Shown: positions 7,330 to 26,235 of the stretch, piece by piece
How the letters are laid out: the number at the start of each line of letters is the position of its first letter
Numbering within the stretch: position 1 is the stretch's first letter
Source: Nonomuraea terrae
GTDB taxonomy: Bacteria > Actinomycetota > Actinomycetes > Streptosporangiales > Streptosporangiaceae
DNA: 64,000 nt
Assembly (NCBI RefSeq): GCF_004348995.1
Contig: NZ_SMKQ01000005.1
Location: 62,001 to 126,000 of the forward strand
Direction of reading: 5' to 3'
Program-made: the position numbers and the translations under genes
The notes under the pieces: generated by a model
Databases searched by the model: none
Told to the model about the DNA's origin: nothing
Seen by the model: only the letters and a program-made list of their open reading frames with translations

Positions 7330-7432
7330 TCGCCAATTTCTAGCAGACGTTGCGTAGTGTCGTGGCTACTTTCCGTTGATTGTCCTGATAGCAAGGGACG
7401 TGGCCGGGACGCGGCCCCCATAGGCTGTCGGC

Positions 7433-8149
7433 ATGACGCGCGCTCAGTTGGACAAACAGCCGGATGAGGTCGCCGCGATGTTCGATCGCACCGCCCGGCG
7501 CTACGACTTGGTCAATGACGTGATCTCGCTGGGCCAGGTCAGGCTCTGGCGCAAGGCGGTGGCCGCCGCCGTCGACGCGGGGCCCGGCGAGGTCGTCCTC
7601 GACCTGGGGGCCGGCACCGGCACCTCGACCGACGCGTTCACCACGCTGGGCGCGCGGGCGATCGCCTCCGACTTCTCGCTCGGCATGCTCCGCACCGGCG
7701 TGCGCCGCCACGGCGGCAACGCGCTGACCGGTGAGGGCGTGCCCTTCGTCGCGGGCGACGCGCTGCGGCTGCCCTTCGCCGACGAGGCGTTCGACGCGGT
7801 GACGATCTCGGTCGCGCTGCGCAACGTCCACGACACCGCGCAGGCGCTGCGCGAGATGCTGCGGGTGACCAAGCCGGGCGGGCGTCTGGTGATCCTCGAG
7901 TTCTCGCACGTGACGTTCGCGCCGTTCGATCTGGTCTATCGCGAATATCTGATGAAGCTGCTGCCGAAGATGGCCAGGGTGTTCGGATCCAACGACGACT
8001 CCTACGAATACCTGGCCGAGTCGATCAGAGACTGGCCCGACCAGGCGACGCTGGCGCGCACCATCCAGCAGGCCGGTTGGGAACGCGTCGCCTGGCGCAA
8101 CCTCACGATGGGGATCGTCGCGCTGCATCGCGGCTTCAAGCCCGCCTGA
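7433..8149 (+). CDS. menG: Demethylmenaquinone methyltransferase
   Basis: 238 aa; SAM-dependent methylation of demethylmenaquinone, the last step to menaquinone. UbiE/MenG signatures are present: '[17 protein letters not shown]' near residue 24, the SAM loop '[15 protein letters not shown]' near residue 50, 'AGDALRLPF' (motif II) and '[17 protein letters not shown]' (motif III). The ATG lies 7 nt after TAGGCT (7421-7426), consistent with a leaderless mRNA. The next gene in the same direction encodes a MenJ-type reductase, so menaquinone tailoring genes precede the NADH:menaquinone oxidoreductase operon. Confidence 0.93.
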
Positions 8150-8344
8150 GGTTTTCGCGGTTCGGCGACAATCTTCTTTTCCGGCAGGCCGTATTACCGG
8201 GGCGGACATGCCGACGCGCGGAATTTCCCGCCGTGACGGCGAGTCCTCGTCTCTAGTTGAAAAGCCAATCATTTTCCGGATGGCCGTCGCGCTCGGGGAT
8301 AACCGAAAGCGGGCGCGCCCGGCGAAATCAATCGGCGCCGCCGG

Positions 8345-8382
8345 GCCGGGCGGGTCCCCGACGTGAAGCGGACCCGCCCGGC
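8345..8382 (+). terminator. Strong GC hairpin after menG
   Basis: Perfect inverted repeat with 13-bp arms (core CCGGGCGGGTCC / GGACCCGCCCGG, extended by one G-C pair) around a 12-nt loop. There is no T-run, but such U-less hairpins are common between actinobacterial transcription units. It lies about 200 bp after the menG stop and before the Rex-type site, so it probably separates menG from the menJ-nuo transcript. Confidence 0.5.
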
Positions 8383-8539
8383 GCGGCCCGCCGTACGCTC
8401 CGCGGACGCGCCGAACCGAGGCGGCCCGAAAGATGATCATGATGGCCTGGCACAGGCGACACGCCATCCCCTCTGATCACGATCCAGCCCCCCGACTGCC
8501 ACTTTGTACAGCAAAAGCAGTAGACTGCTGGCCGATAAG

Positions 8540-8559
8540 TTTGTGAAGGGGTTCACAAA
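8540..8559. promoter_or_regulatory. Rex (NADH/NAD+ sensor) operator
   Basis: Perfect palindrome TTTGTGAA-N4-TTCACAAA. The Rex consensus in Gram-positive bacteria is TTGTGAA-N4-TTCACAA, and Rex is known to repress the nuo operon and cytochrome bd genes in Streptomyces when NADH/NAD+ is low. The site is 145 bp upstream of the menJ-type gene that leads into nuoA-N. Rex itself is not encoded in this window. Confidence 0.82.
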
Positions 8560-8704
8560 GGAACGAAGGCGCCAAACCCCGAGGCCTTCGGAGCGTGTAG
8601 GGACAGGACAGTCCAGTGACCGTGCCAACAGCCGCCCGCCAGGCGCACGAGCCCGCCGCGAGACAGCGCTGTACAGGCGCACCCATGGTGAAGCGGGCGC
8701 GATC

Positions 8705-9943
8705 ATGAGCGCCGTTGACGCCGACGTCATCGTCGTCGGCGCAGGGCCGGCCGGCTCCGCGAGCGCCTTCTACCTGGCCGCCGCCGGGCTCGACGTCCTG
8801 GTGCTGGAGAAGACCAGGTTCCCCAGGGAGAAGGTCTGCGGCGACGGCCTGACCCCGCGCGCCGTCAAGCAGCTGCTCAACATGGGCGTCGACGTCGACG
8901 CTCCCGGTTGGGTCAGGAACAAGGGCCTGCGCATCGCCGGCGGCGGCATGCGCTTCGAGCTCGACTGGCCGCAGCTCGACCGCTTCCCCGACTTCGGCCT
9001 CGTCCGCACGCGCCAGGACTTCGACCAGATCATGGCCGCCCACGCCGTCAAGAACGGCGCGCGGCTCATGGAGGGCGTCACCGTCACCGGCCCGATCCTC
9101 GACGACCGCAGCGGCCACATCGTGGGCGTCACCACCAAGGACGGCCGCGAGTTCCGCAGCCGCGTGGTCGTCGCCGCCGACGGCAACAGCACCCGCCTGG
9201 CCCTCGGCATGGGCCTGCACAAGCGGGAGGACCGCCCGATGGGCGTGGCCGTGCGCACGTACTTCGACAGCCCGCGCCACGACGACGACTACCTCGAGAT
9301 CTGGCTGGAGCTGTGGGACGCCGACACGCTGCTGCCCGGCTACGGCTGGATCTTCGGCGTCGGTGACGGCACCGCCAACGTGGGTCTCGGGCTGCTCAAC
9401 ACGAGCGAGCAGTTCAAGAACATCGACTACCGCGACCTGCTGCGGCGCTGGTGCCGGTCGATGCCCGAGGAGTGGGGCTTCACCCAGGAGAACATGACGG
9501 GCCCGATCCGCGGCGCCGCGCTCCCGATGGCCTTCAACCGGCAACCCCACTACACGCGCGGCCTGATGCTCGTGGGAGACTCCGGCGGGTCGATCAACCC
9601 GTTCAACGGCGAGGGCATCGCCTACGCCATGGAGACCGGAGAGATCGCCGCCGAGATCATCGCCAAGGCTCTCAAGGGCACCACACCCGCCCAGCGGGAG
9701 CGGATCTTGCGGACCTACCCCCAGGTGCTGAAGGACGCCTACGGCGGATACTTCACCCTCGGCAGGTGGTTCGTCGAGGCGATCGGGAAGCCCGGTGTCA
9801 TGAGCTTCGGCACCAGGCACGGGCTACCCCATCCAAGGCTGATGCGCTTCGCGCTCAAACTCCTTGGTAACCTCACGGACCGGCGAGGCGATGCGTCGGA
9901 CTTGATCATTAACGCACTCTCGAAGGTCGCGCCACCAGCATGA
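8705..9943 (+). CDS. menJ: Geranylgeranyl-reductase-family flavoprotein, probable menaquinone tail reductase
   Basis: 412 aa FAD-dependent reductase. N-terminal dinucleotide fold 'DADVIVVGAGPAGSASAF', the family motif 'FPREKVCGDGLTPRAV' (residues near 40), and the second FAD motif 'LMLVGDSGGSINPFNGEG' near residue 290. Members reduce isoprenoid double bonds; mycobacterial MenJ saturates one unit of the menaquinone side chain. Proximity to menG, the nuo operon and a polyprenyl synthase supports that role here. I place the start at ATG 8705, right before the FAD motif, because the upstream open frame looks non-coding. It probably heads the Rex-controlled nuo transcript, with 64 nt before nuoA. 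Confidence 0.85.
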   Translation: MSAVDADVIVVGAGPAGSASAFYLAAAGLDVLVLEKTRFPREKVCGDGLTPRAVKQLLNMGVDVDAPGWVRNKGLRIAGGGMRFELDWPQLDRFPDFGLVRTRQDFDQIMAAHAVKNGARLMEGVTVTGPILDDRSGHIVGVTTKDGREFRSRVVVAADGNSTRLALGMGLHKREDRPMGVAVRTYFDSPRHDDDYLEIWLELWDADTLLPGYGWIFGVGDGTANVGLGLLNTSEQFKNIDYRDLLRRWCRSMPEEWGFTQENMTGPIRGAALPMAFNRQPHYTRGLMLVGDSGGSINPFNGEGIAYAMETGEIAAEIIAKALKGTTPAQRERILRTYPQVLKDAYGGYFTLGRWFVEAIGKPGVMSFGTRHGLPHPRLMRFALKLLGNLTDRRGDASDLIINALSKVAPPA

Positions 9944-10007
9944 ATCTCAGAACTGACAGATCCGGCTGCGCGCCCGCGCGCGCGGCGACTCCGGAGGAGG
10001 CGTAGCG

Positions 10008-10403
10008 ATGGACCTTTACGTGCCCATCCTGGTGCTCGCCGTTCTCGCGGGGGGCTTCGCGATCTTCTCGGTCGCCATCGCTCCCTTCACCGGTCCCAAG
10101 CGCTGGAACCGCGCCAAGCTCGACGCCTATGAATGCGGCATCGAGCCGACGCCCCAGCCTGTCGGTGGTGGACGGTTCCCGCTCAAATACATGGTCACGG
10201 CGATGCTCTTCATCGTCTTCGACATCGAGATCATCTTCCTCTACCCGTGGGCCGTCTCGTTCGCTCCGCAGACGGACGACCTCGGCCGCGTGCTCTCTTC
10301 GGGCCTCGGATTGTTCGCGCTCGTCGAGATGCTGCTGTTCATCGTCACCGTGCTCGTCGCCTACGCGTACGTGTGGCGCCGCAAGGGTCTGGACTGGGAC
10401 TGA
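10008..10403 (+). CDS. nuoA: NADH-quinone oxidoreductase subunit A
   Basis: 131 aa, three transmembrane helices, with the conserved loop '[11 protein letters not shown]' and acidic residue block '[16 protein letters not shown]'. Membrane subunit at the quinone/proton interface of complex I. Strong ribosome-binding site GGAGGAGG upstream of the ATG. First gene of the nuoA-N operon; nuoB follows after 2 nt. Confidence 0.95.
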
Positions 10404-10405
10404 AA

Positions 10406-10957
10406 ATGGGACTTGAAGAGAAACTCCCCAGCGGGTTCATCCTCAGCACGGTCGAAGCGGCCGCCGGGTGGGCGCGGAAGAACTCCGTGTGGCCGGCCAC
10501 GTTCGGCCTCGCGTGCTGCGCCATCGAGCTGATGGCCACCGGCGGCCCCCACTACGACCTCGCGCGCTTCGGCATGGAGCGCGCTTCGGCGTCTCCCCGT
10601 CAGGCCGACCTGATGATCGTGGCCGGTCGCGTGTCGCAGAAGATGGCGCCGGTGCTGCGTCAGATCTACGACCAGATGGCCGAGCCCAAGTGGGTCATCT
10701 CCATGGGCGTGTGCGCCTCCAGCGGCGGCATGTTCAACAACTACGCCATCGTGCAGGGCGTCGACCACGTCGTCCCGGTCGACATCTACCTGCCCGGCTG
10801 CCCGCCGCGGCCCGAGATGCTGATCGACGCGATCGTGAAGCTGCACGACAAGATCCAGAACATGAAGTTCGGCGCGCACCGCGCCAAGCAGATCGAGGAG
10901 CTCGAGCTGCAGGCGCTGCGCACGCTGCCGCTGATCGACCAGGGGGCCGCGAAGTGA
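10406..10957 (+). CDS. nuoB: NADH-quinone oxidoreductase subunit B
   Basis: 183 aa. Ligates the terminal N2 [4Fe-4S] cluster: the tandem cysteines in '[11 protein letters not shown]', then '[12 protein letters not shown]' and 'LPGCPPRPE' are all present. Start chosen at ATG 10406, 2 nt after the nuoA stop; the upstream open frame is a shadow of nuoA. The C-terminal extension after the core is charged ([12 protein letters not shown]). Its stop overlaps the nuoC GTG (GTGA). Confidence 0.95.
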
Positions 10958-11649
10958 CCTCGCCCGACAACCTCCCCGAGGTCCCGGACGCGCAGGTCCC
11001 CGAGGTGCCGGCGGCGCAGGAGCCGCCGATCGCCCGGCAGGGCATGTTCGGCGCCACGGACTCCGGTGACACCTCCGGCTACGGCGGGCTCGTCGTCCGC
11101 CGCCCGCCGCAGATCTCGACGCCCCGCCCGTACGGGAGCTACTTCGACGAGGTCGTCGACGCCCTGGCGCTCGACGACGCGATCGAGCGCGTGGTCGTCG
11201 ACCGCGGCGAGCTGACCCTGCACGTCAAGCGCGAGCGCCTCGTCGAGGTCAGCCAGAAGATGCGCGACGACCCCGCCCTGCGCTTCGAGCTGTCGCTCGG
11301 CGTCTCCGGGGTGCACTACCCGCACCTGACGGGCGAGGAGCTGCACGCGGTCTACCACCTGTGCTCGATCACCCACAACAGGCGCGTGCGCCTGGAGGTG
11401 AGCTGCCCGGACGCCGACCCGCACATTCCATCGACCGTGGGCGTTTACCCTGGTCACGACTGGCATGAGCGTGAGACGTACGACTTCTTCGGGATCATCT
11501 TCGACGGTCACCCCGCGCTCACCCGGATCATGATGCCGGACGACTGGGAGGGTCACCCCCAGCGGAAGGACTACCCGCTCGGCGGCATCCCGGTCGAATA
11601 CCGCGGCGCCACCATCCCGTCGCCCGACCACAGGAGGAGCTACTCGTGA
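10954..11649 (+). CDS. nuoC: NADH-quinone oxidoreductase subunit C
   Basis: 231 aa, 30-kDa subunit of the peripheral arm. The family signature '[18 protein letters not shown]' lies near residue 170 and '[13 protein letters not shown]' near the C-terminus. GTG start overlaps the nuoB stop by 4 nt. The first ~55 residues are Pro/Glu-rich and probably disordered, a common actinobacterial extension. It is separate from NuoD, not fused. Confidence 0.93.
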
Positions 11650-12971
11650 GCACCGCTTATGACGAGGCCACCGAGGGCAAGGTCTACTCGGTCAACGGCG
11701 CCGACTGGGACCAGGTCGTGGCCGGCGTGCGCGAGACGGAAGAAGAGCGGCTCGTCGTCAACATGGGCCCCCAGCACCCGTCCACGCACGGCGTGCTCCG
11801 GCTGGTGCTGACGCTCGACGGCGAGACGGTGACCGAGGCGCGCGGCGTCATCGGCTACCTGCACACCGGCATCGAGAAGAACATGGAATTCCGGACGTGG
11901 ACGCAGGGCACCACGTTCGTGACCCGCATGGACTATCTCTCGCCGATCTTCAACGAGACCGCCTACAGCATGGGCGTGGAGAAGCTGCTCGGCATCACCG
12001 ACCGCATCCCCGAGCGGGCGCAGGCCATCCGCGTGATGATGATGGAGCTCAACCGCATCTCCTCGCACCTGGTGGCCATGGGCACGTTCGGCATGGAGCT
12101 GGGCGCGACCACGCCGTTCCTGTTCGGCTACCGCGACCGCGAGCTGATCATGGACCTGTTCGAGTACATCACGGGTCTGCGCATGAACCACGCCTACGTC
12201 AGGCCGGGCGGCGTGAGCGTCGACCTGCCCGCGGGCGCGGTCGACAAGGTCGGCGAGTTCCTCAAGGAGATGCCCAAGCGGATCAAGGACATCCGCAAGC
12301 TCCTCGACGCCAACCCGGTCTACGTGCGCCGTACGAAGGACGTGGCCTACCTCGACCTGACCGGCTGCATGGCGCTCGGCGTCACCGGCCCGATCCTGCG
12401 CGCCGCCGGCCTGCCGTGGGACCTGCGCAAGTCGCAGCCCTACTGCGGTTACGAGACCTACGAGTTCGACGTCGCCACCGAGCGCGGCTGCGACGTGTAC
12501 TCGCGCTACCTCGTGCGCATGAAGGAGATGGAGGAGTCCCTCAAGATCATCGAGCAGGCCCTGGACCGGATCGCCGGTCCGCTCAAGGGCGACCCGGTGA
12601 TGATCGAGGACAAGAAGATCGGCTGGCCCGCGCAGCTCGCGCTCGGCCCCGACGGGTTCGGCAACTCGCCCGACCACATCGCCCACATCATGGGCACCTC
12701 GATGGAGGCCCTCATCCACCACTTCAAGCTGGTGACCGAGGGGTTCCGGGTGCCGGCCGGGCAGGCGTACGCCAGCATCGAGTCGCCCAAGGGCGAGCTC
12801 GGCGCCCACGTGGTCAGCGACGGTGGCACCCGCCCCTTCCGCGTGCACTTCCGCGAGCCGTCCTTCTGCAACCTGCAGGCCTTCCCCGCGATGGCGGAGG
12901 GCGGCCAGGTCGCCGACGTGATCGCCGCGGTGGCTTCTATCGACCCCGTCATGGGAGGTGTGGACCGGTGA
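11646..12971 (+). CDS. nuoD: NADH-quinone oxidoreductase subunit D
   Basis: 441 aa, 49-kDa subunit that forms the quinone-binding cavity with NuoB. Conserved blocks include '[16 protein letters not shown]' near residue 40, '[20 protein letters not shown]', and '[16 protein letters not shown]' near the C-terminus. GTG start overlaps the nuoC stop; its own stop overlaps the nuoE GTG. Confidence 0.95.
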
Positions 12972-13624
12972 CTTACTCACCGGAAGTCCGTGAGCGTCTG
13001 GAGCAGGACGCCAAGGAGATCATCGGCCGCTACCCGAAGACGCGGTCCGCCCTGCTGCCGCTGCTCCACCTCGTGCAGTCGGAGGACGGTTACGTCTCCG
13101 ACGACGGGCAGGAGTTCTGCGCCGAGATGCTGGGCCTCAGCAAGGCCGAGGTCACCGGCGTGGCGACCTTCTACACCATGTACAAGCGCAAGCCCGCCGG
13201 TGACTACCACGTCGGGGTGTGCATCAACGCGCTGTGCGCGGTCATGGGCGGCGACCAGATCTGGGAAGAGCTGTCGGAGCACGTCGGCGTCGGCCACGAG
13301 GAGGCGACCGGCGACGGCAAGATCTCGCTGGAGCGCCTCGAGTGCAACGCGGCCTGCGACTTCGCGCCGGTCATGATGGTCAACTGGGAGTTCTTCGACA
13401 ACCAGACCCCCGAGTCGGCCAAGCAGCTCGTCGACGACCTGCGCGCCGGCAAGGAAGTGCGCCCCACGCGCGGCCCGAACGGGCTGTGCACCTTCAAGGA
13501 GGCCTCGCGCGTGCTGGCCGGCCTGCCCGACGAGCGCGCGGGCGAGGGCCCGTCGGCCGCCGGCGCGTCGCTTGAGGGTCTGAAGGTCGCCAAGGCCAAC
13601 GGATGGAAGGCCCCCGAGGCATGA
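12968..13624 (+). CDS. nuoE: NADH-quinone oxidoreductase subunit E
   Basis: 218 aa thioredoxin-like [2Fe-2S] subunit (cluster N1a). The four ligands appear as '[14 protein letters not shown]' (C-x4-C) and '[13 protein letters not shown]' (C-x3-C). The helical N-terminus '[20 protein letters not shown]' is typical. GTG start by overlap with the nuoD stop. It has a C-terminal extension of about 60 residues beyond the cluster domain. The stop overlaps the nuoF ATG. Confidence 0.93.
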
Positions 13625-14910
13625 GCACGACGCTGACACCGGTCCTGACCGCCAACTGGGACCAGCCCGACTCCTTCACCATCGACGCCTACGGCGAGTA
13701 CGCCGCGGCGCGCAAGGCCCTGGGCATGGACCCCGACGCGGTCATCCAGGCCGTGAAGGACTCCGGCCTGCGCGGCCGCGGCGGCGCGGGCTTCCCCACC
13801 GGCATGAAGTGGGGCTTCATCCCGCAGGGCGACGGCAAGCCGCACTATCTGGTCGTCAACGCCGACGAGTCCGAGCCGGGCACCTGCAAGGACATCCCGC
13901 TGATGATGGCCAACCCGCACTCGCTGGTCGAGGGCATCATCATCACGTCGTACGCGATCCGCGCCAACCACGCCTTCATCTACGTGCGCGGCGAGGTGCT
14001 GCACGTCATCCGCCGGCTGCACGCGGCCGTGCGGGAGGCGTACGAGAAGGGGTATCTCGGCAAGGACATCTTCGGCTCCGGCTTCGACCTGGAGCTGGTC
14101 GTGCACAGCGGCGCGGGCGCCTACATCTGCGGCGAGGAGACGGCACTGCTCGACTCGCTCGAGGGCTTCCGTGGTCAACCCCGGCTCAAGCCTCCGTTCC
14201 CGGCCGTGGCGGGCCTGTACGCCTCGCCCACTGTCGTCAACAACGTCGAGTCGATCGCGAGTGTTCCCTCGATCATCGGCAAGGGCGCCGACTGGTTCGC
14301 CGGGATGGGCACCGAGAAGTCCAAGGGCTTCGGCATCTTCTCGCTCAGCGGCCACGTCACCCGCCCCGGCCAGTACGAGGCCCCGCTCGGCATCACGCTG
14401 CGCGAGCTGCTCGACATGGCGGGCGGCATCCGCGAGGGGCACCGGATCAAGTTCTGGACCCCGGGCGGCTCCTCGACGCCGATCTTCACCGACGAGCACC
14501 TCGACGTGCCGCTCGACTTCGAGGCGGTCGGCGCCAAGGGCTCCATGCTCGGCACGCGCGCGCTGCAGATCTTCGACGAGACCACCTGCGTGGTCCGCAC
14601 GGTGCTGCGCTGGACGGAGTTCTACGCCCACGAGTCCTGCGGCAAGTGCACGCCCTGCCGCGAGGGCACGTACTGGCTCAAGCAGGTGCTCAAGCGCCTG
14701 GAGGCCGGTCAGGGCACCGAAGAGGACCTCTCCACGATCACCGACATCGCGGACAACATCCTGGGCCGCTCGTTCTGTGCGCTGGGCGACGGCGCGACGA
14801 GCCCGATCCACTCCTCGGTGAAGTACTTCCGCGAGGAGTACCTCAAGCACTTCGAGATCGGCGGCTGTCCGTTCGACCCGAAGAAGTCCACTCTCTGGGG
14901 TGAGCAGTGA
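13621..14910 (+). CDS. nuoF: NADH-quinone oxidoreductase subunit F
   Basis: 429 aa; binds NADH and FMN and carries [4Fe-4S] cluster N3. Visible are the NADH/FMN glycine motif '[17 protein letters not shown]', the '[15 protein letters not shown]' block, and the cluster ligands '[13 protein letters not shown]' plus a distal Cys in '[11 protein letters not shown]'. ATG 13621 overlaps the nuoE stop by 4 nt and is preferred to an in-frame ATG 18 nt upstream inside nuoE. Confidence 0.95.
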
Positions 14911-17282
14911 CCGTCGTAGAGACCGAAACGAACCTGGTGACCCTGACCATCGACGGGTTCCAGGTCAGTGTCCCCAAGGGCACTCTGATCATCAGGGCCG
15001 CCGAGCTCCTGGGCATCCAGATCCCCAGGTTCTGCGACCACCCGCTGCTCGACCCGGCGGCCAACTGCCGCCAGTGCCTGGTCGACATCCCCGACGCGGG
15101 CAACGGCCGCGGCTTCCCCAAGCCGCAGCCGTCGTGCGCCATCGAGGTCGCCGAGGGCATGGTGGTGCAGACCCAGCTCACGTCCCCGGTGGCCGAGAAG
15201 GCGCAGCGGGCGGCGATGGAGTTCCTGCTGCTGAACCACCCGCTCGACTGCCCGGTCTGCGACAAGGGCGGCGAGTGCCCGCTGCAGAACCAGGCCATGT
15301 CCAACGGCCGCGGCGAGTCCCGGTTCCAGGAGCAGAAGCGCACCTTCCCCAAGCCGCTGCCGCTGTCGACGCAGGTGCTGCTCGACCGCGAGCGCTGCGT
15401 CCAGTGCGCGCGCTGCATCCGCTTCTCCGACCAGATCGCGGGCGACCCGCTCATCGAGTTCTTCGAGCGCGGGGCGAAGGAGCAGGTACGCACGGCCGAC
15501 GGTAAGCCGTTCAACTCCTACTTCTCCGGCAACACGGTGCAGATCTGCCCGGTCGGCGCGCTCACCGGCGCCGCCTACCGCTTCCGCGCCCGCCCGTTCG
15601 ACCTGGTCTCCACGCCGAGCGCGTGCGAGCACTGCGCCTCCGGCTGCAGCATGCGCACCGACCACCGGCGCGGCCGGGTCACCCGCCGCCTGGCGGGCGA
15701 CGACCCGCAGGTGAACGAGGAGTGGAACTGCGACAAGGGCCGCTGGGCGTTCACGTACGCCACGCAGCCCGACCGGCTCAAGCAGCCGCTGGTCCGCAAC
15801 GAGGAGGGCGTGCTCGTGCCCACCTCGTGGCCGGAGGCGCTGATGGTGGCCGCGCAGGGCCTGGCCAACGCCCGCGGCAAGGCCGGCGTGCTGGTCGGCG
15901 GCCGGGTCACGGTCGAGGACGCCTACGCCTACGCCAAGTTCGCCCGCATCGCCCTCGGCACCAACGACGTCGACTTCCGCGCCAGGCCGCACTCCGCCGA
16001 GGAGGCGCAGTTCCTGGCGCACGCGGTGGCCGGCAAGGGCATCGAGATCGGCTACGCCGACCTCGAGAACGCCCCCCACGTGCTGCTCGTCGGGTTCGAG
16101 CCCGAGGAGGAGTCGCCGATCGTCTTCCTGCGCCTGCGCAAGGCGTGGATGAAGAAGGGCCTGAAGGTCACCGCGATCGCGCCGTTCGCCACCCCCGGGC
16201 TGGAGAAGATGGGCGGCACGCTCATCCGCACCGCCCCCGGCGCCGAGGCCGACGCCATCGGCGACCTGGTCGGCACGCTGGCCCCGGGCACGATCGTGCT
16301 CGCCGGCGAGCGACTGGCCACCGTCCCCGGTGCGCTGTCCGCCCTCGTCCGCCTCGCCGCCGCCTCCGAGGCCAGGCTCGCCTGGATCCCGCGCCGGGCC
16401 GGTGAGCGCGGCGCGATCGAGGCCGGCGCGCTGCCCAACCTGCTGCCGATCGGCCGCCCGGTGGACGACGAGACCGCCAGGGCCGAGGTCGCCCGGCTGT
16501 GGAACGTCGCCTCGCTGCCCGCCACGCCGGGCCGCGACACCTCCGCCATCCTGGCCGCCGCCCGCGACGGCGAGATCGACGCGCTGGTCGTGGCCGGCGT
16601 CGACCCGTACGACCTGGCCGACCCGGGCGAGGCGCTCGACGCGCTGGAGCACACGCCGTTCATCGTCAGCCTGGAGATCCGTGCCAGCGCCGTCACCGAC
16701 CGCGCCGACGTGGTGCTGCCCGTGGCCGCCGTGCAGGAGAAGGGCGGCACGTTCGTCAACTGGGAGGGCAGGGGCCGCTCGTTCGAGGCGCCGCTGAAGG
16801 TGCCCGGCCTGCAGTCGGACCTGGCCGTGATCGTCAACCTGGCCGACCGGATGGACGTCCACCTGGCCCTGCCGGACGCCAAGGCGGTCCGGCGCGAGCT
16901 GTCCACCCTGGGCTCCTGGCGCGGCAGCCGCGTCCCGGCGCCGAGCGTGCTGAGCCGCTCGCCGGAGGTGCCGGAGACCGGCCAGGCGCTGCTCGCCACC
17001 TGGCACCAGCTGCTCGACGAGGGCAGGCTGCAGGACGGCGAGCCGTACCTCGCGGGCACCGCCCGCCCCGCCGAAGCGCTGCTCTCCGAGAGCACGGCCG
17101 CCGAGCTCGGCGTCACCGACGGCGACAAGCTCGTCGTCGGCGGCATCGTGACGCTGCCGCTGCGCGTCGCCGACCTGCCCGACCGCGTGGTCTGGGTGCC
17201 GGCGAACTCCGGCGGCTGCTCGGTCACCCGTGACCTGCGCGCGGTGTCCGGCGACATCGTCACCATCGGGAGCGCCTCATGA
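14907..17282 (+). CDS. nuoG: NADH-quinone oxidoreductase subunit G
   Basis: 791 aa iron-sulfur subunit. N-terminal [2Fe-2S] ligands '[18 protein letters not shown]', the His-Cys motif '[19 protein letters not shown]', the '[13 protein letters not shown]' cluster, and a complete C-x2-C-x3-C-x27-C set ('CEHCASGC' to 'NCDKGRW') for the off-pathway N7 cluster. A molybdopterin-oxidoreductase-like domain follows, without catalytic cofactor function in complex I. GTG start overlaps the nuoF stop; the stop overlaps the nuoH ATG. Confidence 0.94.
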
Positions 17283-18580
17283 AACACGTACTCGCGGCCG
17301 ATCCCACCCTCGCCGACTTCGGCAAGGACCCGCTGTGGATCACCATCATCAAGGCCGTGATGCTGTTCGTCTTCCTGATGCTGGGCATCCTGTTCGGCGT
17401 CTGGTACGAGCGCAAGCTGATCTCCTGGATGCAGAACAGGCGCGGCCCGAACAGGGCGGGCAAGTTCGGTCTCCTGCAGTCCGCGGCCGACGGTCTGAAG
17501 ATGGGCCTCAAGGAGGACATCTTCCCGACGACCGTGGACCGGGTGCTCTACCTGCTCGCACCGGTGATCATGGTGGTGCCGGCGTTCCTGGCGTTCTCGA
17601 TCGTGCCGTTCGCGCCGATGGTCAACCTGTTCGGCGTGCAGACGCCGCTGCAGCTGGTCGACCTGCCGGTCGCGGTGCTGTTCATGCTCGCGATGGGCGC
17701 GGTCTCCGTCTACGGCGTGGTGCTGGCCGGCTGGTCGTCGCGCTCGCCGTACGCGCTGCTCGGCGGTCTGCGGTCGGCGGCCCAGGTGGTCTCCTACGAG
17801 ATCGCGATGGGCCTGTCGTTCGTGGCGATCTTCCTGTTCGCCGGGACGTTGTCCACGTCGGAGATCGTGGCCGCGCAGGAGCAGACCTGGTTCGCGGTGC
17901 TGCTGATCCCCTCGTTCCTCATCTACGTGGTGTGCATGTTCGGTGAGGCCGCCCGCATCCCGTTCGACCTGCCCGAGGGTGAGGGCGAGCTGGTCGGCGG
18001 CTTCCAGACCGAGTACTCCTCGTCGCTGAAGTTCGCCCTGATCATGATGGGCGAGTACCTGCACACCTTCACCGCCTCGGGCATCGCCGTGACGCTCTTC
18101 CTGGGCGGCTGGCGGGCGCCGTTCCCGATCTCGTTGTGGGAGGGCGCGAACGTCGGCTGGTGGCCGGTGTTGTGGTTCTTCATCAAGTTCGTGCTGGTCT
18201 TCAGCTTCATCGTGTGGGTGCGGGCCTCGCTGCCGCGCGTGCGCTACGACCAGTTGATGTCGCTGGGCTGGAAGGTGCTGATCCCGGTCAACCTGGCCTG
18301 GATCCTGCTCGTGGCCGCCGTGCGCAACCTCGTGGTCAACGAGGGCGACCGGATGATCGGGCTCGGGCTCGCCGGGGTGATCGTGATCGGCGCGCTGGCC
18401 ATCTGGCTGCGGTTCGACACCGTCAACCAGCGGCGCAAGGAGGCGCAGAAGGCACAGGTGGACGCCGAGTTCGAGGAACTGTCCAACGAGCCGACGGCCG
18501 GCGGATTCCCTGTGCCGCCGCTCGACCTGCCGCACTACCACGGGGTGCAGCACAAGGAGATTCCCAGTGGGACTAACTGA
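17279..18580 (+). CDS. nuoH: NADH-quinone oxidoreductase subunit H
   Basis: 433 aa, about eight transmembrane helices, joining the membrane and peripheral arms. Conserved segments: '[15 protein letters not shown]' near residue 43 and the acidic quinone-site loop '[20 protein letters not shown]' near residue 225. A C-terminal charged extension of roughly 50 residues follows the last helix. Overlaps nuoG by 4 nt and nuoI by 14 nt. Confidence 0.95.
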
Positions 18581-19082
18581 TTGGCTGAACCCCGTCAAGG
18601 GCTTCGGGGTCACCTTCCACACGATGTTCAAGAAGCCCGTCACGGTGAACTACCCGGAGGTCAAGAAGCCGACGGCTCCTCGCTTCCACGGGCGTCACCA
18701 GCTCAACCGCTGGCCTGACGGGCTGGAGAAGTGCGTCGGGTGCGAGCTGTGCGCCTGGGCGTGTCCCGCCGACGCGATCTTCGTCGAGGGCGCGGACAAC
18801 ACCGAGGACGAGCGCTACTCGCCGGGCGAGCGTTACGGGCGCACGTACCAGATCAACTATCTGCGGTGCATCCTGTGCGGGCTCTGCATCGAGGCGTGCC
18901 CGACCCGCGCGCTCACCATGACGAACGAGTACGAACTCGCCGACACCAACCGCGAGAGCCTCATCTACACCAAGGAGATGCTCCTCGCGCCTCTGACGCC
19001 CGGCATGGAGCAGCCGCCGCACCCCATGCGGCTCGGTGAGACGGAAGAGGACTACTACCGGCTGGGGCGGACCAATGGGTGA
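18567..19082 (+). CDS. nuoI: NADH-quinone oxidoreductase subunit I
   Basis: 171 aa with two [4Fe-4S] ferredoxin motifs (N6a/N6b): '[12 protein letters not shown]' near residue 55 and '[12 protein letters not shown]' near residue 100. It links NuoG to the N2 cluster in NuoB. GTG start inside the end of nuoH; the nuoJ start lies within its last codons (8-nt overlap). Confidence 0.95.
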
Positions 19083-19875
19083 GACCATCACGTTCTGGGT
19101 GCTCGCCGTCGTCTCCGTCGGCGCCGCACTCGGCATGGTCTTCAACCGGAAGGCCGTCTACTCCGCGCTGATGCTCGGCACGGTGATGCTCTGCCTGGCG
19201 GTCCTGTACGCGGTGCAGGACGCGCCGTTCCTGGCCGCCGTGCAGATCATCGTGTACACCGGCGCGATCATGATGCTGTTCCTGTTCGTGCTCATGCTCG
19301 TGGGCGTCGACTCGTCCGACTCGTTCGTCGAGACGATCAAGGGTCAGCGCTTCTGGGCGATCCTCGCGGGCCTCGGGTTCGTGGTGCTCATCGTCGTGGC
19401 CATCGGCAACGTGGTCTTCGCGCCGCAGGTCGGGCTGACCACGGTCACGGAACAGGGCGGCGGCTACATCCGCTCGATCGCGACCGAGCTGTTCACCACG
19501 TACGTCTTCGCGTTCGAGATCACCTCGGCGCTGCTGATCACCGCGGCGCTCGGCGCGATGGTGCTGGCGCACCGCGAGCAGCTCACGGACAAGCCGACGC
19601 AGAAGGACCTCTCCCGCGCCCGTTTCCGCGGCGACCACCCGTCGCCGCTGCCGGGGCCCGGCACGTACGCGCGCAACAACGCGGTCGACATGCCCGCGCG
19701 GCTGCCCGACGGCTCGGCCGCCGAGTCCTCGGTCAACCGCTACATCGCGCGCTACGACGTCGAGCACGGCCGGCTGCCCCAGGACCCGGAGCTCGCCGAG
19801 GCCATCCGGCACACGGCCGAGGAGAACGTCCCGCAGACCGAGGCAGAGCAGAGCAGCAATGAGGTGACCAAGTGA
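19075..19875 (+). CDS. nuoJ: NADH-quinone oxidoreductase subunit J
   Basis: 266 aa. Five transmembrane helices occupy residues 1-165, including '[20 protein letters not shown]', the pi-bulge helix region of complex I. A hydrophilic C-terminal tail of about 90 residues follows, longer than in E. coli NuoJ. I start at ATG 19075 ('[10 protein letters not shown]'), overlapping nuoI; an in-frame start 39 nt earlier would add residues read out of nuoI. Stop overlaps the nuoK GTG. Confidence 0.92.
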
Positions 19876-20168
19876 CGACGCACTACCTCATCCTTTCCGG
19901 CCTGCTGTTCGCCATCGGCGCCATGGGCGTGCTGATCCGGCGCAACGCGATCGTGGTGTTCATGTGTGTGGAGCTCATGCTCAACGCCTGCAACCTCGCG
20001 TTCGTCACCTTCTCCAGGCAGGTCGGCAACCTGGAAGGCCAGATCATCGCGTTCTTCGTGATGGTGGTGGCCGCGGCCGAGGTCGTGGTCGGCCTGGCCA
20101 TCATTGTGACGATCTTCCGAACCCGCAGGTCCGCGTCCGTTGACGACGCCAACCTGCTGAAGTACTAA
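19872..20168 (+). CDS. nuoK: NADH-quinone oxidoreductase subunit K
   Basis: 98 aa, three transmembrane helices, homologous to MrpC. Conserved membrane glutamates lie in '[16 protein letters not shown]' and '[15 protein letters not shown]'. GTG start overlapping nuoJ. nuoL starts 10 nt after its stop. Confidence 0.95.
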
Positions 20169-20178
20169 GAGGTGACTG

Positions 20179-22089
20179 GTGGAATCTCAACTCGCTGAGA
20201 TCGTCCAGCACACCGGCGGAGTGATCGGCAACGCCTGGCTGATGATCGCCTTCCCCCTCGTGGGGGCGTTCATCCTGCTGGTGTTCAACCGCTTCACCAA
20301 CCGGTGGGGGCATCTGCTGGGCGTGGCCATGTCCCTCGCCTCGTTCGTGGTGGCGGTGCTGGCGTTCGTCGAGCTGCTCGGGTTCGGGGAGGAGGAGCGC
20401 CGCCGGGCCGTACACCTGTACGAGTTCATCCCCGGCATGGTCGACATGGGGCTGCTCATCGACCCGCTGTCGATCAGCTTCGCGCTGCTGATCACGGGCG
20501 TCGGATCGCTGATCCACATCTACTCGATCGGCTACATGGCCCACGACGAGCACCGGCGCAGGTTCTTCTCCTACCTGAACCTGTTCGTGGCCGCGATGCT
20601 CCTGCTCGTGCTGGCGGACAACTACGTGGGCCTGTTCATCGGCTGGGAGGGCGTCGGCCTGGCGTCGTACCTGCTGATCGGGTTCTGGCAGTTCAAGCCG
20701 TCGGCGGCGACCGCGGCGAAGAAGGCGTTCGTCGTCAACCGCGTCGGTGACTTCGGGCTGCTGGTCGGCATGTTCGTCATCTGGACGACGTTCGGCACCC
20801 TGACCTTCAAGGGCCTCGGCGAGCAGATCGCGCCCGGCACCGAGAACGGCACCATGCTGGCCATCGGCCTGCTGCTGCTCCTCGGCGCCTGCGGTAAGTC
20901 GGCGCAGCTGCCGCTGCAGTCCTGGCTCCTCGACGCCATGGAGGGCCCGACCCCGGTCTCGGCCCTCATCCACGCGGCGACCATGGTCACCGCCGGCGTC
21001 TACCTGGTGGTCCGCTCGGGGGCGTTCTTCTTCCCCGAGGGCTCGGGCGCGGCGCTCGCCGTCGCCATCGTCGGCGCGGCCACGCTGCTCGCCGGTGCGA
21101 TCATCGGTTGCGCGAAGGACGACATCAAGAAGGGCCTGGCCGGCTCGACGATGTCGCAGATCGGCTACATGATGCTCGGCGCGGGCCTCGGCCCGGCGGG
21201 CTACGCCTTCGCGATCGGCCACCTGATCACGCACGGCTTCTTCAAGGCCGACATGTTCCTCGGCGCCGGCTCCGTCATGCACGGCATGAACGACGAAGTC
21301 GACATGCGCAAGTACGGCGCCCTGCGCAAGGTCATGCCGGTCACGTTCGTCACGTTCTTCATCGGCTACCTGGCGATCATCGGGTTCCCGCTGCTGTCCG
21401 GTTACTTCACCAAGGACGGCATCATCGAGACCGCGGTGCACCACCAGCCGATCCTGGGCTGGCTGGCCGTGCTCGGCGCGGGCATCACCGGCTTCTACAT
21501 GTCGCGGATGGTCTTCATGACCTTCTTCGGCGAGAAGCGCTGGGCCGACGACGTTCACCCGCACGAGTCGCCGCTCGTCATGACCGTGCCGCTGATGATC
21601 CTCTCGCTCGGCTCGATCTTCCTGGGCGGTTACCTCATTCTGAGCAACCGGCTCCTGGACTGGCTCACCCCCGCGGTGGGCGCGCCGGCGGTGCGGCCGG
21701 AGTTCCACTTCACCAGCGTGCCCGGCCTCGCGACCCTCGCGCTCGTCGCGGTCGGCGCGATCATCGCCTGGATAAAGTACGGCAGGGTCCCGGTGCCGGC
21801 GGTGCAGCCGCGCGGCTCCTTCCTCACCACTTTCGCCCGGCGCGACCTGTACGGTGACGCGCTCAACGAGTCGCTGTTCATGCGTCCCGGCCAGTGGCTC
21901 ACCCGTCTCGCGGTGTTCTTCGACAACCGCGGCATCGACGGGGTGGTCAACGGACTGGCGGCGGGCATCGGCGGCAGCTCCGGGCGCCTGCGGCGGATCC
22001 AGACGGGCTTCGCCAGAACGTACGCGCTGTCCATCCTGATCGGCGCCGCCCTGCTGACCGGCGCCCTGCTCTTCGTTGGGAACATCTGA
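20179..22089 (+). CDS. nuoL: NADH-quinone oxidoreductase subunit L
   Basis: 636 aa antiporter-like proton-pumping subunit. About 16 hydrophobic segments; family blocks '[20 protein letters not shown]', '[20 protein letters not shown]' and the long C-terminal lateral helix region are present. GTG start ('[12 protein letters not shown]'). Its stop overlaps the nuoM ATG (TGATG). Confidence 0.95.
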
Positions 22090-23645
22090 TGTCACCCTGG
22101 CTTCCGATACTCATGGCGGTGCCCGTGGTGGGCGCCATCGTGGTGGCCCTGCTTCCCAAGGGCAGTGACAAGCTGGCCAAGCAGGTCACCCTGCTGGTCT
22201 CGCTGCTGGTGCTGGTCCTGACGGGTGTCATGGCCGCCGGGTTCGACCCGTCGGGCGACCGCTTCCAGTTCGTCGCCGAGTACAACTGGATCCCGAGCTT
22301 CGGCGTGAAGTTCGGGGTCGGCGTCGACGGTGTCGCGCTCGTGCTCATCGCCCTGTCGGTGGTGCTGGTGCCGCTGGTGGTGCTGGCCTCCTGGCACGAC
22401 GCCGACGGCGTCAAGGCCGCCGACGGCACGCTGATCACGCCGAAGCGGTCGGTGAAGACGTACTTCGCGCTGCTGCTGGTGCTGGAGACGATGATGATCG
22501 GCGTCTTCGCGGCGACCGACATCTTCCTCTTCTACGTCTTCTTCGAAGCCATGCTGATCCCGATGTACTTCATGATCGGGTCGTACGGCGGGGCCCAGCG
22601 GTCGTACGCGGCCGTCAAGTTCCTGCTCTACTCGCTGTTCGGCGGCCTGCTCATGCTGGTCGCGGTCATCGGCCTCTACGTGGTCGCGGGCAAGCAGACG
22701 TTCATGTTCCCCGAGCTCGTCGGCGCCATCCAGGACCCGACGATGCAGAAGTGGCTCTTCGGCGGCTTCTTCATCGCCTTCGCGATCAAGGCGCCGCTCT
22801 GGCCGGTGCACACCTGGCTGCCCGACGCGGCGGCCCAGGCCCCGGCCGGCGCCGCGGTGCTGCTCGTGGGCGTGCTCGACAAGGTCGGCACGTTCGGCAT
22901 GCTGCGCTTCTGCCTGGAGCTCTTCCCCGACGCCGCCAAGGCGTTCACGATGCCGATCGTCGTGCTGGCGGTCATCAGCATCGTCTACGGCGCCATCGTG
23001 GCCATCGGGCAGACCGACATGAAGCGGCTCATCGCCTACACGTCGATCTCGCACTTCGGCTTCATCGTGCTCGGCGTGTTCGCCATGTCGTCCGTCGCGC
23101 AGTCCGGCGCGGCCCTCTACATGGTCAACCACGGCTTCGCCACCGGCGCGCTGTTCCTGGCCGCGGGCTTCCTCATCGCCCGCCGCGGCTCGCCGTACAT
23201 CGGCGACTACGGCGGCGTGCAGAAGGTCGCCCCGGTGCTCGCGGGCTTCTTCCTGATCGCGGGCCTGGCCGGCCTGTCGCTGCCGGGTCTGTCGTCGTTC
23301 GTCAGCGAGTTCATGGTCATGATCGGCACGTACTCGAGCCAGGCGCACGGCTCCGGCGCGCTCACGGCGGCGGCGATCGTGGCCGCGGTGGCCGTCATCC
23401 TCGCGGCCGTCTACATCCTGTGGATGGTCCAGCGGACCATGAACGGGCCGACGGCCGAGCCGGTCAAGGCCTTCAAGGACCTGAGCGCGCGCGAGGTGTG
23501 GGTGCTGGCCCCGCTGGTCGCGCTGATCATCGGCTTCGGCTTCTTCCCCAAGCCGCTGCTCGACGTGATCAACCCGTCAGTGCAACAGACGCTGACCAAC
23601 GTGCAGGTTCCCACCTCCACCATCGCTGAAGGGACAGGTCAGTGA
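22089..23645 (+). CDS. nuoM: NADH-quinone oxidoreductase subunit M
   Basis: 518 aa antiporter-like proton-pumping subunit. Contains 'FFEAMLIPMYFMIGSYGG', 'PLWPVHTWLPDAAAQAPA' and 'RLIAYTSISHFGFIVLG', typical for NuoM/MrpD. ATG 22089 overlaps the nuoL stop; open frame upstream belongs to nuoL's shadow. Stop overlaps the nuoN GTG. Confidence 0.95.
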   Translation: MSPWLPILMAVPVVGAIVVALLPKGSDKLAKQVTLLVSLLVLVLTGVMAAGFDPSGDRFQFVAEYNWIPSFGVKFGVGVDGVALVLIALSVVLVPLVVLASWHDADGVKAADGTLITPKRSVKTYFALLLVLETMMIGVFAATDIFLFYVFFEAMLIPMYFMIGSYGGAQRSYAAVKFLLYSLFGGLLMLVAVIGLYVVAGKQTFMFPELVGAIQDPTMQKWLFGGFFIAFAIKAPLWPVHTWLPDAAAQAPAGAAVLLVGVLDKVGTFGMLRFCLELFPDAAKAFTMPIVVLAVISIVYGAIVAIGQTDMKRLIAYTSISHFGFIVLGVFAMSSVAQSGAALYMVNHGFATGALFLAAGFLIARRGSPYIGDYGGVQKVAPVLAGFFLIAGLAGLSLPGLSSFVSEFMVMIGTYSSQAHGSGALTAAAIVAAVAVILAAVYILWMVQRTMNGPTAEPVKAFKDLSAREVWVLAPLVALIIGFGFFPKPLLDVINPSVQQTLTNVQVPTSTIAEGTGQ

Positions 23646-25234
23646 ACGGGGACTTCCAAGCGCCGACGATCGAGTACGGCACGCTCGCGCCGTTGCTGGT
23701 GGTCTTCGGCGCGGCCATCATCGGCGTGCTGGTCGAGGCGTTCGCGCCGCGTTACCTGCGCAAGCCGATCCACGTGCCGCTCACCCTGCTGAGCCTGGCG
23801 GGCGCGTTCGCGCTGGTCCTCGTGCAGGTGATGGGCGGTCAGGTGTCCACCGCGCCCTCCGCCATGGGCGCACTGGCCGTCGACGGGCCCTCGCTGTTCA
23901 TCTGGGGCGTCATCCTCGTCCTGTCGTTCGTCTGTGTGCTGCTGATCAACGACGAGGGCCACTTCGTGGCCTCCGCCGCGGCCGTGCCCGGCAGCGCCGA
24001 CGAGGAGGAGGCCGAGGCCCACTCGGGCGGGGTCGGCCACACCGAGGTCTACCCGCTGGTCCTGTTCGCCGTGGGCGGCATGCTGCTCTTCCCGGCCTCG
24101 CACGACCTGCTCATGATGTTCGTGGCCCTTGAGGTCATGTCGCTGCCTCTCTACCTGCTGTGCGGCTTGGCCCGCCGGCGTCGCCTGCTGTCGCAGGAGG
24201 CGTCGATGAAGTACTTCCTGCTGGGCGCCTTCTCCTCGGCGTTCTTCCTGTACGGCATCGCCATGGTCTACGGCTTCGCGGGCACCGTCTCGCTGCCGGG
24301 CATCAACCGGGCCATGGCGGCGGGCAACACGCTCGACCCGCTGCTGCTGCTCGGGCTCGCGCTGCTCGGCGTGGGCCTGCTGTTCAAGATCGGCGCGGCG
24401 CCGTTCCAGGCGTGGAAGCCGGACGTCTACCAGGGCGCCCCGACCCCCATCACGGCCCTCATGGCCTCGGGCACCCTCGTCGCGGCCTTCGGGGCCGTTC
24501 TGCGGGTGTTCTGGGTGGGTCTGGGCAACCTTGACTGGAACTGGCGTCCGGTCATCTGGGTCGTGGCCGCGCTCACCATGGTCGCCGGCTCGATCCTGGC
24601 CATCACGCAGACCGAGATCAAGCGCATGCTGGCCTACTCGTCCATCGCGCACGCGGGCTTCCTGCTCGTCGGCGTGATGGCCACGTACGGCTCGGCCGAG
24701 CGCAACGCCGACTCACTCAAGGCGATCCTGTTCTACCTCGCGGTGTACGGTGTCACCACGGTCGGCGCGTTCGCGATCGTCACGCTCGTCCGCGACCCGG
24801 GCGGCGAGGCCGGTCACCTGTCGCGCTGGGCGGGTCTCGGAAAGCGCGCGCCGCTGCTCGCGGGCGTGTTCGCGTTCTTCCTGCTCGCCTTCGCCGGCAT
24901 CCCGCTGACCAGTGGCTTCTTCGGCAAGTACGCCGTGTTCGCGGCCGCTCTCGACAGCGGCACGCAGGCCGGCGACTCGGTGGGTGGCTGGATGGCCGGC
25001 CTGGTCGTCGTGGGCGTGGTGGCCTCCGCGATCGCCGCGTTCTTCTACGTCCGCGTGATCGTGCTGATGTTCTTCAGCGACCCGGCGGCCGACGGCCCGG
25101 CCATCGCGGTCCCCAGTATGGGGACCGTGGCGGTGATCGCGGTTTCGCTGCTGGTTACCGTAGGGGTGGGGCTCTATCCGGAGCCCGTGCTCGGTATCGC
25201 CAACCAGGCAGCTAGCAGCCTGTTCATCAGATAA
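23642..25234 (+). CDS. nuoN: NADH-quinone oxidoreductase subunit N
   Basis: 530 aa, third antiporter-like subunit. Motifs 'LLMMFVALEVMSLPLYLLCG', 'PFQAWKPDVYQGAPTPITA' and 'RMLAYSSIAHAGFLLVG' are present. A loop rich in Glu/Ala (residues near 115-135) is an insertion typical of actinobacterial NuoN. Last gene of the complex I operon; a polyprenyl synthase follows after 11 nt in the same direction and may be co-transcribed. Confidence 0.94.
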   Translation: MNGDFQAPTIEYGTLAPLLVVFGAAIIGVLVEAFAPRYLRKPIHVPLTLLSLAGAFALVLVQVMGGQVSTAPSAMGALAVDGPSLFIWGVILVLSFVCVLLINDEGHFVASAAAVPGSADEEEAEAHSGGVGHTEVYPLVLFAVGGMLLFPASHDLLMMFVALEVMSLPLYLLCGLARRRRLLSQEASMKYFLLGAFSSAFFLYGIAMVYGFAGTVSLPGINRAMAAGNTLDPLLLLGLALLGVGLLFKIGAAPFQAWKPDVYQGAPTPITALMASGTLVAAFGAVLRVFWVGLGNLDWNWRPVIWVVAALTMVAGSILAITQTEIKRMLAYSSIAHAGFLLVGVMATYGSAERNADSLKAILFYLAVYGVTTVGAFAIVTLVRDPGGEAGHLSRWAGLGKRAPLLAGVFAFFLLAFAGIPLTSGFFGKYAVFAAALDSGTQAGDSVGGWMAGLVVVGVVASAIAAFFYVRVIVLMFFSDPAADGPAIAVPSMGTVAVIAVSLLVTVGVGLYPEPVLGIANQAASSLFIR

Positions 25235-25245
25235 GGGGTTCTCGT

Positions 25246-26235
25246 ATGTCCGCGCCTCCCGTGGTTGACCTTCCCATCGAGGACGAGCGGTTGGCGCTGG
25301 ACGTGGCCAACGGGCTGGCCGCGGTCGAGAAGCTCCTGCGCTCGTCGGTGGAGACCGAGGACGCCTTCGTCACGGAGGTGTCCAAGCACCTCATCGAAGC
25401 CGGCGGCAAGCGGTTCCGCACGTTGATGGTGCTGCTGGCGGCGCAGTTCGGAGACCCGTCGGCGCCGGGCGTCGTGCCCGGCGCCGTGGTCATCGAGCTG
25501 ACCCACCTCGGCTCGCTCTACCACGACGACGTCATGGACGAGGCCGAGGTGCGCCGCGGCTCCCCGTCCGCCAACGCCCGGTGGGACAACACCGTGGCGA
25601 TCCTCACGGGCGACTACCTGTTCGCCCAGGCCTCCGACCTCCTCGCCGACCTCGGCCCCGAGCTGATCCGCATCCAGGCGCAGACGTTCTCCCGCCTGGT
25701 TCAGGGGCAGATCCGCGAGACGGTCGGGCCGCGCGAGGGCGAAGACCCCATCGCCCACTACCTGTCCGTGCTCTCCGACAAGACCGGCTCGCTCATCGCC
25801 GCCTCCGGCCGCTTCGGCGCCCTGCTCGCCGGCGCCCCGGCCGACGTGGAGGAGCGCCTCAGCCGCGCGTGCGAGGCGATCGGCGTGGCCTGGCAGCTCG
25901 GCGACGACCTGCTCGACGTCGCCTCCTCCGGCGCCCAGTCCGGCAAGACGCCCGGCACGGACCTGCGGGAGGGCATCAAGACCCTCCCCGTCCTGTACGC
26001 GCTCGCCGCCGGCGACTCGCCGCGCCTGACCGAGCTGCTGTCCGGCCCGGTGCCCGAGGAGCACGTCGAGGAGGCGCTCACCCTGCTGCGCGCCCATTCG
26101 GCGATGGCCAGGGCCCACGCGGAGCTGGACGCCTGGGTCGACCGGGCCCGCACCGACATCTCCGGCCTGCCCGACATCCCGGCCAGGAGCGCTTTTCTCG
26201 CCCTATGTGACTACGTGGTCGAGCGCAGCGGCTGA
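25246..26235 (+). CDS. Long-chain polyprenyl diphosphate synthase
   Basis: 329 aa trans-isoprenyl diphosphate synthase. First Asp-rich motif 'SLYHDDVMDEAEVRRG' (DDxxD, near residue 89) and second 'WQLGDDLLDVASSG' (near residue 218) are intact, with 'GGKRFRTLM' at the substrate site. Small/aliphatic residues before the first motif favour long products such as the menaquinone tail. Position directly after nuoN, with menG and menJ upstream of the operon, supports menaquinone side-chain synthesis. It overlaps the convergent rarD gene tail by 33 bp. Confidence 0.9.
   Translation: MSAPPVVDLPIEDERLALDVANGLAAVEKLLRSSVETEDAFVTEVSKHLIEAGGKRFRTLMVLLAAQFGDPSAPGVVPGAVVIELTHLGSLYHDDVMDEAEVRRGSPSANARWDNTVAILTGDYLFAQASDLLADLGPELIRIQAQTFSRLVQGQIRETVGPREGEDPIAHYLSVLSDKTGSLIAASGRFGALLAGAPADVEERLSRACEAIGVAWQLGDDLLDVASSGAQSGKTPGTDLREGIKTLPVLYALAAGDSPRLTELLSGPVPEEHVEEALTLLRAHSAMARAHAELDAWVDRARTDISGLPDIPARSAFLALCDYVVERSG

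Follow-up and report, generated by a model that had tools for sequence, protein, structure and literature searches.

We found that a 20-bp site in the 64-kb window (the whole stretch of DNA that was analysed) is very probably an operator for the regulator Rex. In the reading that we favour, to which we give a probability of about 87%, this operator belongs to the promoter heading an operon that comprises a geranylgeranyl-reductase-family gene (GGR), nuoA to nuoN and a polyprenyl synthase gene; repression by Rex would be relieved by NADH, and nuo would be the conserved target. What we observed directly comprises the site itself, a rex gene and further Rex-type sites in the genome, the deep conservation of the site and of a −10 element, and the way in which the presence of the site depends on both rex and the 5′ end of nuo. 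A Rex operator had been proposed here by a sequence-only reading of the window, and the proposal was supported: the genome has a single rex gene and a consistent set of Rex-type sites, and relatives that lack rex have lost the site.

Read on the + strand of the window sequence, the 20-mer at 8540–8559 is an exact TTTGTGAAGGGGTTCACAAA (Table 1). Its 18-bp core agrees at 14 of 14 scored positions with TTGTGAAN4TTCACAA, the form of the ROP consensus TTGTGAANNNNTTCACAA that we used for scoring. The sequence-only reading had called the site a perfect palindrome matching the Rex consensus; the two 8-bp arms are indeed perfect and the consensus match is complete, but the GGGG spacer is not self-complementary and breaks the palindrome. 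Within the 64 kb the 20-mer was unique with three mismatches allowed, no match of any kind arose in 100 dinucleotide shuffles, and the second-best place on the + strand for the core scored 11/14. Across the 9.69-Mb genome the exact core occurs twice, against ~0.001 occurrences expected from the base composition of the window, and five further places with one or two mismatches bring the total to seven; the reversed pattern, searched as a control in the same genome, gave one place at two mismatches or fewer. An alignment of 30 loci from the genus (own included, drawn from 39 genomes) revealed that the 14/14 core, including its GGGG centre, is identical in all 30, and that the stretch running from CTGCCACT through TAGACT to the operator is largely invariant, whereas the DNA farther upstream is not. 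Four of the 18 named Nonomuraea loci (L173–L176) have a different spacer with both arms intact.

The genome that carries the site also encodes Rex. Its one rex gene starts ~19 kb upstream of the operator (NF003992, 383.5 bits against a cut-off of 226), and the product is similar in sequence to solved Rex structures. Rex-type sites with zero to two mismatches precede rex-hemA, an NDH-2-like gene, a WhiB gene, serA and an atpI-like gene (Table 1). To our knowledge serA is not an established Rex target. For the seventh place in the genome (L006), probably noise, no target gene is apparent, and cydA was not found downstream of any of the seven.

The association between operator and rex was examined in a sample of 118 genomes searched for the pattern, the GGR protein, nuoA, rex and the polyprenyl synthase, of which 112, the present one included, could be scored. 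Those left out were G032 (partial GGR, with a 12/14 site in L139), G067 (contig ending in GGR), G029 (no nuoA or GGR match) and G081, G091 and G101 (no nuoA match). An operator was called at 12/14 or better, a level that mononucleotide-shuffled upstream regions reached in 0.03% of cases and that none of 81 reversed upstream regions reached (best 10). Where GGR adjoins nuoA and rex is present, the operator lies 38–279 bp ahead of GGR in 63 of 65 genomes from 21 families, two of the 63 carrying an additional site ahead of nuoA; one of the misses is a true absence (G069) and in the other the upstream DNA lies outside the data (G004). Two genomes with this gene order had no detectable rex, one with the operator (G059) and one without it (G006). 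Where nuoA has no GGR match at E 1e-90, the operator was found in 15 of 18 genomes with rex and in 0 of 13 without; in these 15 it stands ~50–220 bp upstream of nuoA, too close for a GGR gene to fit in between. Of the genomes with GGR and without nuoA in the stretch covered, G060 and G083 have the operator, and G002 and G111 (both with rex) and G019 (without rex) do not. Altogether the operator is present in 89 of 96 genomes with rex and in one of 16 without, G043 being scored among the latter because its rex match falls below the cut-off. The seven genomes with rex that lack the operator are G069, G004, G002, G111 and three nuoA-led genomes of family f4, a family without the operator whether rex is there or not; the converse exception is G059 (94% complete, 380 contigs), in which no hidden rex was found with the full Rex protein as query. 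The association gave a Fisher p of 1e-12 on 109 of the 112 rows (89, 5, 1 and 14), with the three misses G002, G111 and G019 omitted and with related genomes treated as independent. Counted by family, 27 contain at least one genome having both rex and operator, with spacers that vary among them, and f7, f19 and f21 have neither.

We next considered what the operator travels with when the gene order changes. In the nine f16 genomes, GGR lies apart from nuoA by 1.7–6.7 kb, and there the operator was always ahead of nuoA (9/9) and never ahead of GGR (0/9); seven of these nine operators carry the letters footprinted in Streptomyces avermitilis, TTGTGACCTGCTTCACAT, so f16 matches Streptomyces. The named loci, taken from the best 80 of 566 relatives, fall into the same two arrangements. 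In all 48 loci of Nonomuraea or Streptosporangium type in this set, which we take to belong to those two genera and their kin, a 14/14 site precedes GGR. None of the 32 loci of Streptomyces type in it (one filed as Streptosporangium nondiastaticum) has a site there, the best match being 7–9 of 14, and all 19 of those that contain nuoA have a 12/14 site 85–165 bp ahead of nuoA. In G002 (L087) and G111 (L084) the polyprenyl synthase match follows the GGR match at distances of ~205 and ~25 bp, with no operator present. Taken together, the Streptomyces-type placement and the operator-less G002 and G111 argue that the operator stays with the start of nuo. From these comparisons, the conserved target of Rex is nuo, and GGR is included by position, coming under Rex as the first gene of the operon. 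The sequence-only reading had the site controlling menJ and the whole of nuo; it does head the string from GGR to the polyprenyl synthase here, but it remains with nuo alone where GGR is apart.

Several details of these loci are of separate interest. In L087 and L084, GGR and the polyprenyl synthase adjoin each other without nuo, as if forming a pair of their own. In L016 an opposite-strand open reading frame, NlpC/P60-like by eye, lies between GGR and nuoA, making a shared transcript unlikely there. Four loci of family f1 (L039, L040, L036 and L033, genera g3 and g6) have an extra 11–12/14 site 68–94 bp ahead of nuoA besides the 14/14 site before GGR. In relatives such as G033 and G084 the second site ahead of nuoA scores 12/14, so a nuoA promoter may exist there.

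The operator appears to sit in or beside a promoter. A predicted −10 element, TAGACT, is present upstream (Table 1), with each of its six columns at least 97% conserved in the 30 genus loci; it was assigned by this conservation, a strict sigma-70 scan of 8140–10060 having found no promoter. Its counterpart is widespread: the motif TANNNT occurs 13–24 bases upstream of the operator core at 83 of 92 sites, made up of 64 of the 66 that precede GGR and 19 of the 26 that precede nuoA, compared with a mean of 5.9 and a maximum of 12 in shuffles and with counts of 0–5 in other windows of equal size. The site thus combines a conserved predicted −10 element upstream with the respiratory genes nuo downstream. 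Transcription would be expected to start at ~8532–8534, and we infer that the operator occupies ~ +7 to +27 relative to that start, a position from which bound Rex would stop the polymerase during initiation or immediately afterwards. At a low NADH/NAD+ ratio, Rex would sit on the site directly 3′ of the −10 element and RNA polymerase would be blocked; when NADH accumulates, Rex would be released, and complex I would be made along with two prenyl-chain enzymes, a reductase and a synthase, that probably serve menaquinone. Binding, repression and the NADH response are attributed to Rex here from the position and company of the site. A search of 7300–10100 against Rfam, up to E 1, returned no riboswitch or other known RNA, and an unusual RNA fold in the leader or the GGR-nuoA gap was considered and rejected, since none of the folds stood out clearly from shuffled sequence (z −0.95, −0.46 and +1.15).

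Table 1. Features of the predicted Rex-controlled operon in the window, and further Rex-type sites of the same genome
Feature	Position	Strand	Remarks
Possible −35 element, CTGCCA	8496..8501	+	Weak assignment; 19-bp spacer; conserved in genus; 4/6 letters of TTGACA
Predicted −10 element, TAGACT	8521..8526	+	Six conserved columns in 30 genus loci
Rex operator (predicted)	8540..8559		TTTGTGAA-GGGG-TTCACAAA, exact match
Possible 30-codon leader open reading frame	8616..8708	+	GTG start; TGA overlaps GGR ATG (ATGA)
GGR-family FAD oxidoreductase, 412 aa (menJ of the sequence-only reading)	8705..9943	+	ATG start; profile matches
GGR-nuoA gap, 64 bp	9944..10007	+	No recognisable promoter or terminator
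nuoA-nuoN, 14 genes	10008..25234	+	Gaps −14 to +10 bp; nuoK, L, M and N assigned solely from Pfam domain and gene order
Long-chain polyprenyl diphosphate synthase family protein	25246..26235	+	11 bp after nuoN; PF00348
rex-hemA site	L005		One mismatch; hemA recognised by eye
NDH-2-like gene site	L001		Pyr_redox_2
WhiB gene site	L003		
serA site	L004, 1501-1518		13/14; phosphoglycerate dehydrogenase, NAD-linked enzyme
atpI-like (ATP-synthase-associated) gene site	L007		Followed by an ATP synthase a-subunit-like protein, by eye

Downstream of the site, the gene order is as the sequence-only reading described it: a GGR-family reductase (taken there to act on quinone tails), nuoA-N and a polyprenyl synthase. 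These genes lie on the same strand and are closely spaced, and no terminator was found on the + strand between 8140 and 10060. That reading had also named a separate nuoA promoter as what would count against it; none is recognisable in the GGR-nuoA gap, where TANNNT is found in 0 of the 30 genus loci and the best operator match in the present genome is 8/14. We infer that GGR, nuoA-N and the polyprenyl synthase form one transcript; a promoter inside the GGR coding sequence may also be compatible with the analysis of the gap. The best model for the synthase, NF042417, gave 370 bits, below its cut-off of 600. Nuo-to-synthase distances were recorded for 111 genomes out of the 113 in which nuoA was matched: the synthase gene lies 14.9–17.2 kb downstream of nuoA on the same strand in 77 of the 111, 21–36 kb downstream in eight (all f16) and elsewhere in five (all f4), while the remaining 21, with the two genes on different contigs, allow no judgement.

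Three further observations concern the surroundings of the operon. GTG 8616, which opens the possible leader reading frame, corresponds to an in-frame GGR start near the conserved N-terminus in 19 of the 30 genus loci; in the others it is in frame through an insert (2/30), gives an ATGA overlap after 25–30 codons (7/30) or gives a longer overlap (2/30), and in the present genome an insert puts it out of frame with GGR. It is probable from this distribution that GTG 8616 was the ancestral GGR start and survives as a leader open reading frame overlapping the new ATG, probably by way of one insertion followed by frame changes. A demethylmenaquinone methyltransferase gene at 7433–8149 (NF001241, 362.9 bits) ends 390 bp upstream of the operator and has the same orientation as nuo, which places genes of quinone type on both flanks of nuo. 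The window also contains a second nuoA-like gene at ~61076; the idea of a second Rex-controlled nuo copy was rejected, as the best match upstream of it is only 7/14.

The first gene of the string had been named menJ, and the name was not borne out. MenJ is the menaquinone-9 beta-reductase of mycobacteria. The protein scored 264.5 bits with TIGR02032 (geranylgeranyl reductase family, cut-off 158.8) and 258.3 bits with the MenJ equivalog NF045655, far short of the cut-off of 700, while Pfam GGR_cat gave 25 bits, just below its cut-off of 27. It shares a flavoprotein superfamily with mycobacterial MenJ and is the only match above 37 bits in the genome, so that no better MenJ candidate was found elsewhere in it. 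Its best named match is the counterpart in Nonomuraea thailandensis (92% identity), and of the proteins with solved structures a digeranylgeranylglycerophospholipid reductase (3oz2) matches it best in sequence. Usage of the name differs, since excerpts of a study of Geodermatophilales apply MenJ to GGR-family genes on the basis of BLAST matches (PMC9686282). A GGR from Streptomyces coelicolor, possibly the orthologue, reduced GGPP in vitro, as reported in excerpts of PMC6309074. Reduction of the menaquinone tail is the likeliest role for the enzyme, and we regard it as reasonably probable.

Three other explanations of the site were weighed. The Crp consensus is TGTGA-N6-TCACA, and the letters at 8542–8557 fit it exactly; genes for Crp-type HTH proteins are present in the genome, and the cAMP receptor protein might therefore control the operon. 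The distribution of the site speaks for Rex instead. Genes of the Crp-type HTH family, which is broader than Crp itself, occur in 11 of 11 genomes looked at, nine of them with no rex found, and eight of those nine have no operator at nuo; the operator thus follows rex and not crp, and in the present genome rex-hemA is itself preceded by such a site, with one mismatch. Some support for Crp comes from family f4 (mycobacterial type), in which the nuoA upstream regions contain CTGTGNNNTAGCTCACAT in three of eight cases and a looser variant in two of eight. We judge control by Crp very unlikely here. In f4 itself, L089, L090, L093, L094 and L096 have CTGTGNNNTAGCTCACAT or the variant where others have the Rex operator; of the three genomes with CTGTGNNNTAGCTCACAT, two have rex and one does not. 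The motif presumably resembles a Crp/GlxR site, and the pattern is suggestive of a change of regulator at nuo in that family. A chance match, or some other function, for instance as an RNA hairpin where the transcript begins, is next to negligible: the arms could form an 8-bp RNA hairpin, but ~0.001 exact cores are expected per genome, the operator accompanies rex in 27 families with changing spacers, and the fold of 8533–8625 is not clearly better than shuffles (z −0.95).

It might also be that Rex acts on GGR alone and that nuoA has its own promoter, which would set the prenyl-reductase gene and complex I apart. The 64-bp gap between the two genes is compatible with this, as is a 12/14 match that lies 68 bp upstream of nuoA in two relatives of the same family. 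On the other side stand the lack of TANNNT and of a good operator match in the gap, the finding that the operator goes with nuoA when GGR and nuoA are apart, and the lack of an operator in G002 and G111, in which the polyprenyl synthase comes straight after GGR and nuo does not intervene. Such a division is distinctly unlikely, and a Rex operator heading the whole operon remains our preferred reading.

If that reading is right, prenyl-chain enzymes would be likely Rex-controlled genes outside Streptomyces, the genus in which the actinomycete Rex targets in the literature that we found were worked out. In 27 families of the sample, the nuo transcription unit, with or without a GGR gene, has the operator at its 5′ end. 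Because the operator stays with nuo and 15 of the 16 genomes that lack rex do not have it, it provides a usable natural test of Rex control. At somewhat less than even odds, we suggest that in many actinomycete families Rex governs an electron-entry module of reductase, nuoA-N and synthase from one promoter, so that the NADH/NAD+ ratio sets the level of complex I together with the length and saturation of its menaquinone, that this arrangement is the older one, and that the Streptomyces arrangement is derived from it by the reductase splitting off from Rex control.

Rex control of nuo is already known from S. avermitilis. According to excerpts of PMC5355995, Rex binds the nuoA1-N1 promoter in that species (gel shift, footprint and ChIP), nuoA1-N1 expression rises in a rex deletion, NADH weakens the binding of Rex to target promoters, and the ROP consensus is TTGTGAANNNNTTCACAA; the nuoA1-N1 ROP and the present site therefore share consensus, target operon (nuoA-N) and regulator. 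The same excerpts list Rex operators ahead of rex-hemA, cydA1, ndh2, wblE and atpI, and counterparts occur here before the rex-hemA, NDH-2-like, WhiB and atpI-like genes, with none for cydA among the seven places. As to position, the S. avermitilis cydA1 footprint (−3 to +25) resembles the placement deduced here, whereas the nuoA1 footprint (−42 to −16, over the −35 region) differs from a placement 3′ of the −10 element (PMC5355995, excerpts). Either one of the two placements is wrong or the lineages differ. In Actinomyces oris, excerpts of PMC5478893 report Tn5 insertions side by side in a GGR gene (1755107) and nuoA (1754944), and assign insertions in GGR, nuoA, nuoJ and nuoG to one coaggregation class. 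GGR adjoins nuoA there as it does here; the main text of that paper does not contain the word rex, and polarity on nuo could be a cause of the GGR phenotype. We found no paper that places GGR under Rex, an earlier prediction in the key older Rex or MenJ papers being possible; PMC5765111, which came up for Rex with geranylgeranyl reductase, does not bear on the question. What may be novel is the boundary of the operon, with one Rex promoter ahead of GGR, nuoA-N and the polyprenyl synthase in many families. In the Streptomyces type the operator stands directly ahead of nuoA, matches at 12/14 and leaves GGR apart; here it stands one gene farther upstream, matches at 14/14 and includes GGR. The site extends a known kind of control: it is an ordinary but well-supported predicted Rex operator, with an operon boundary unlike that of the genus in which this control has been studied.
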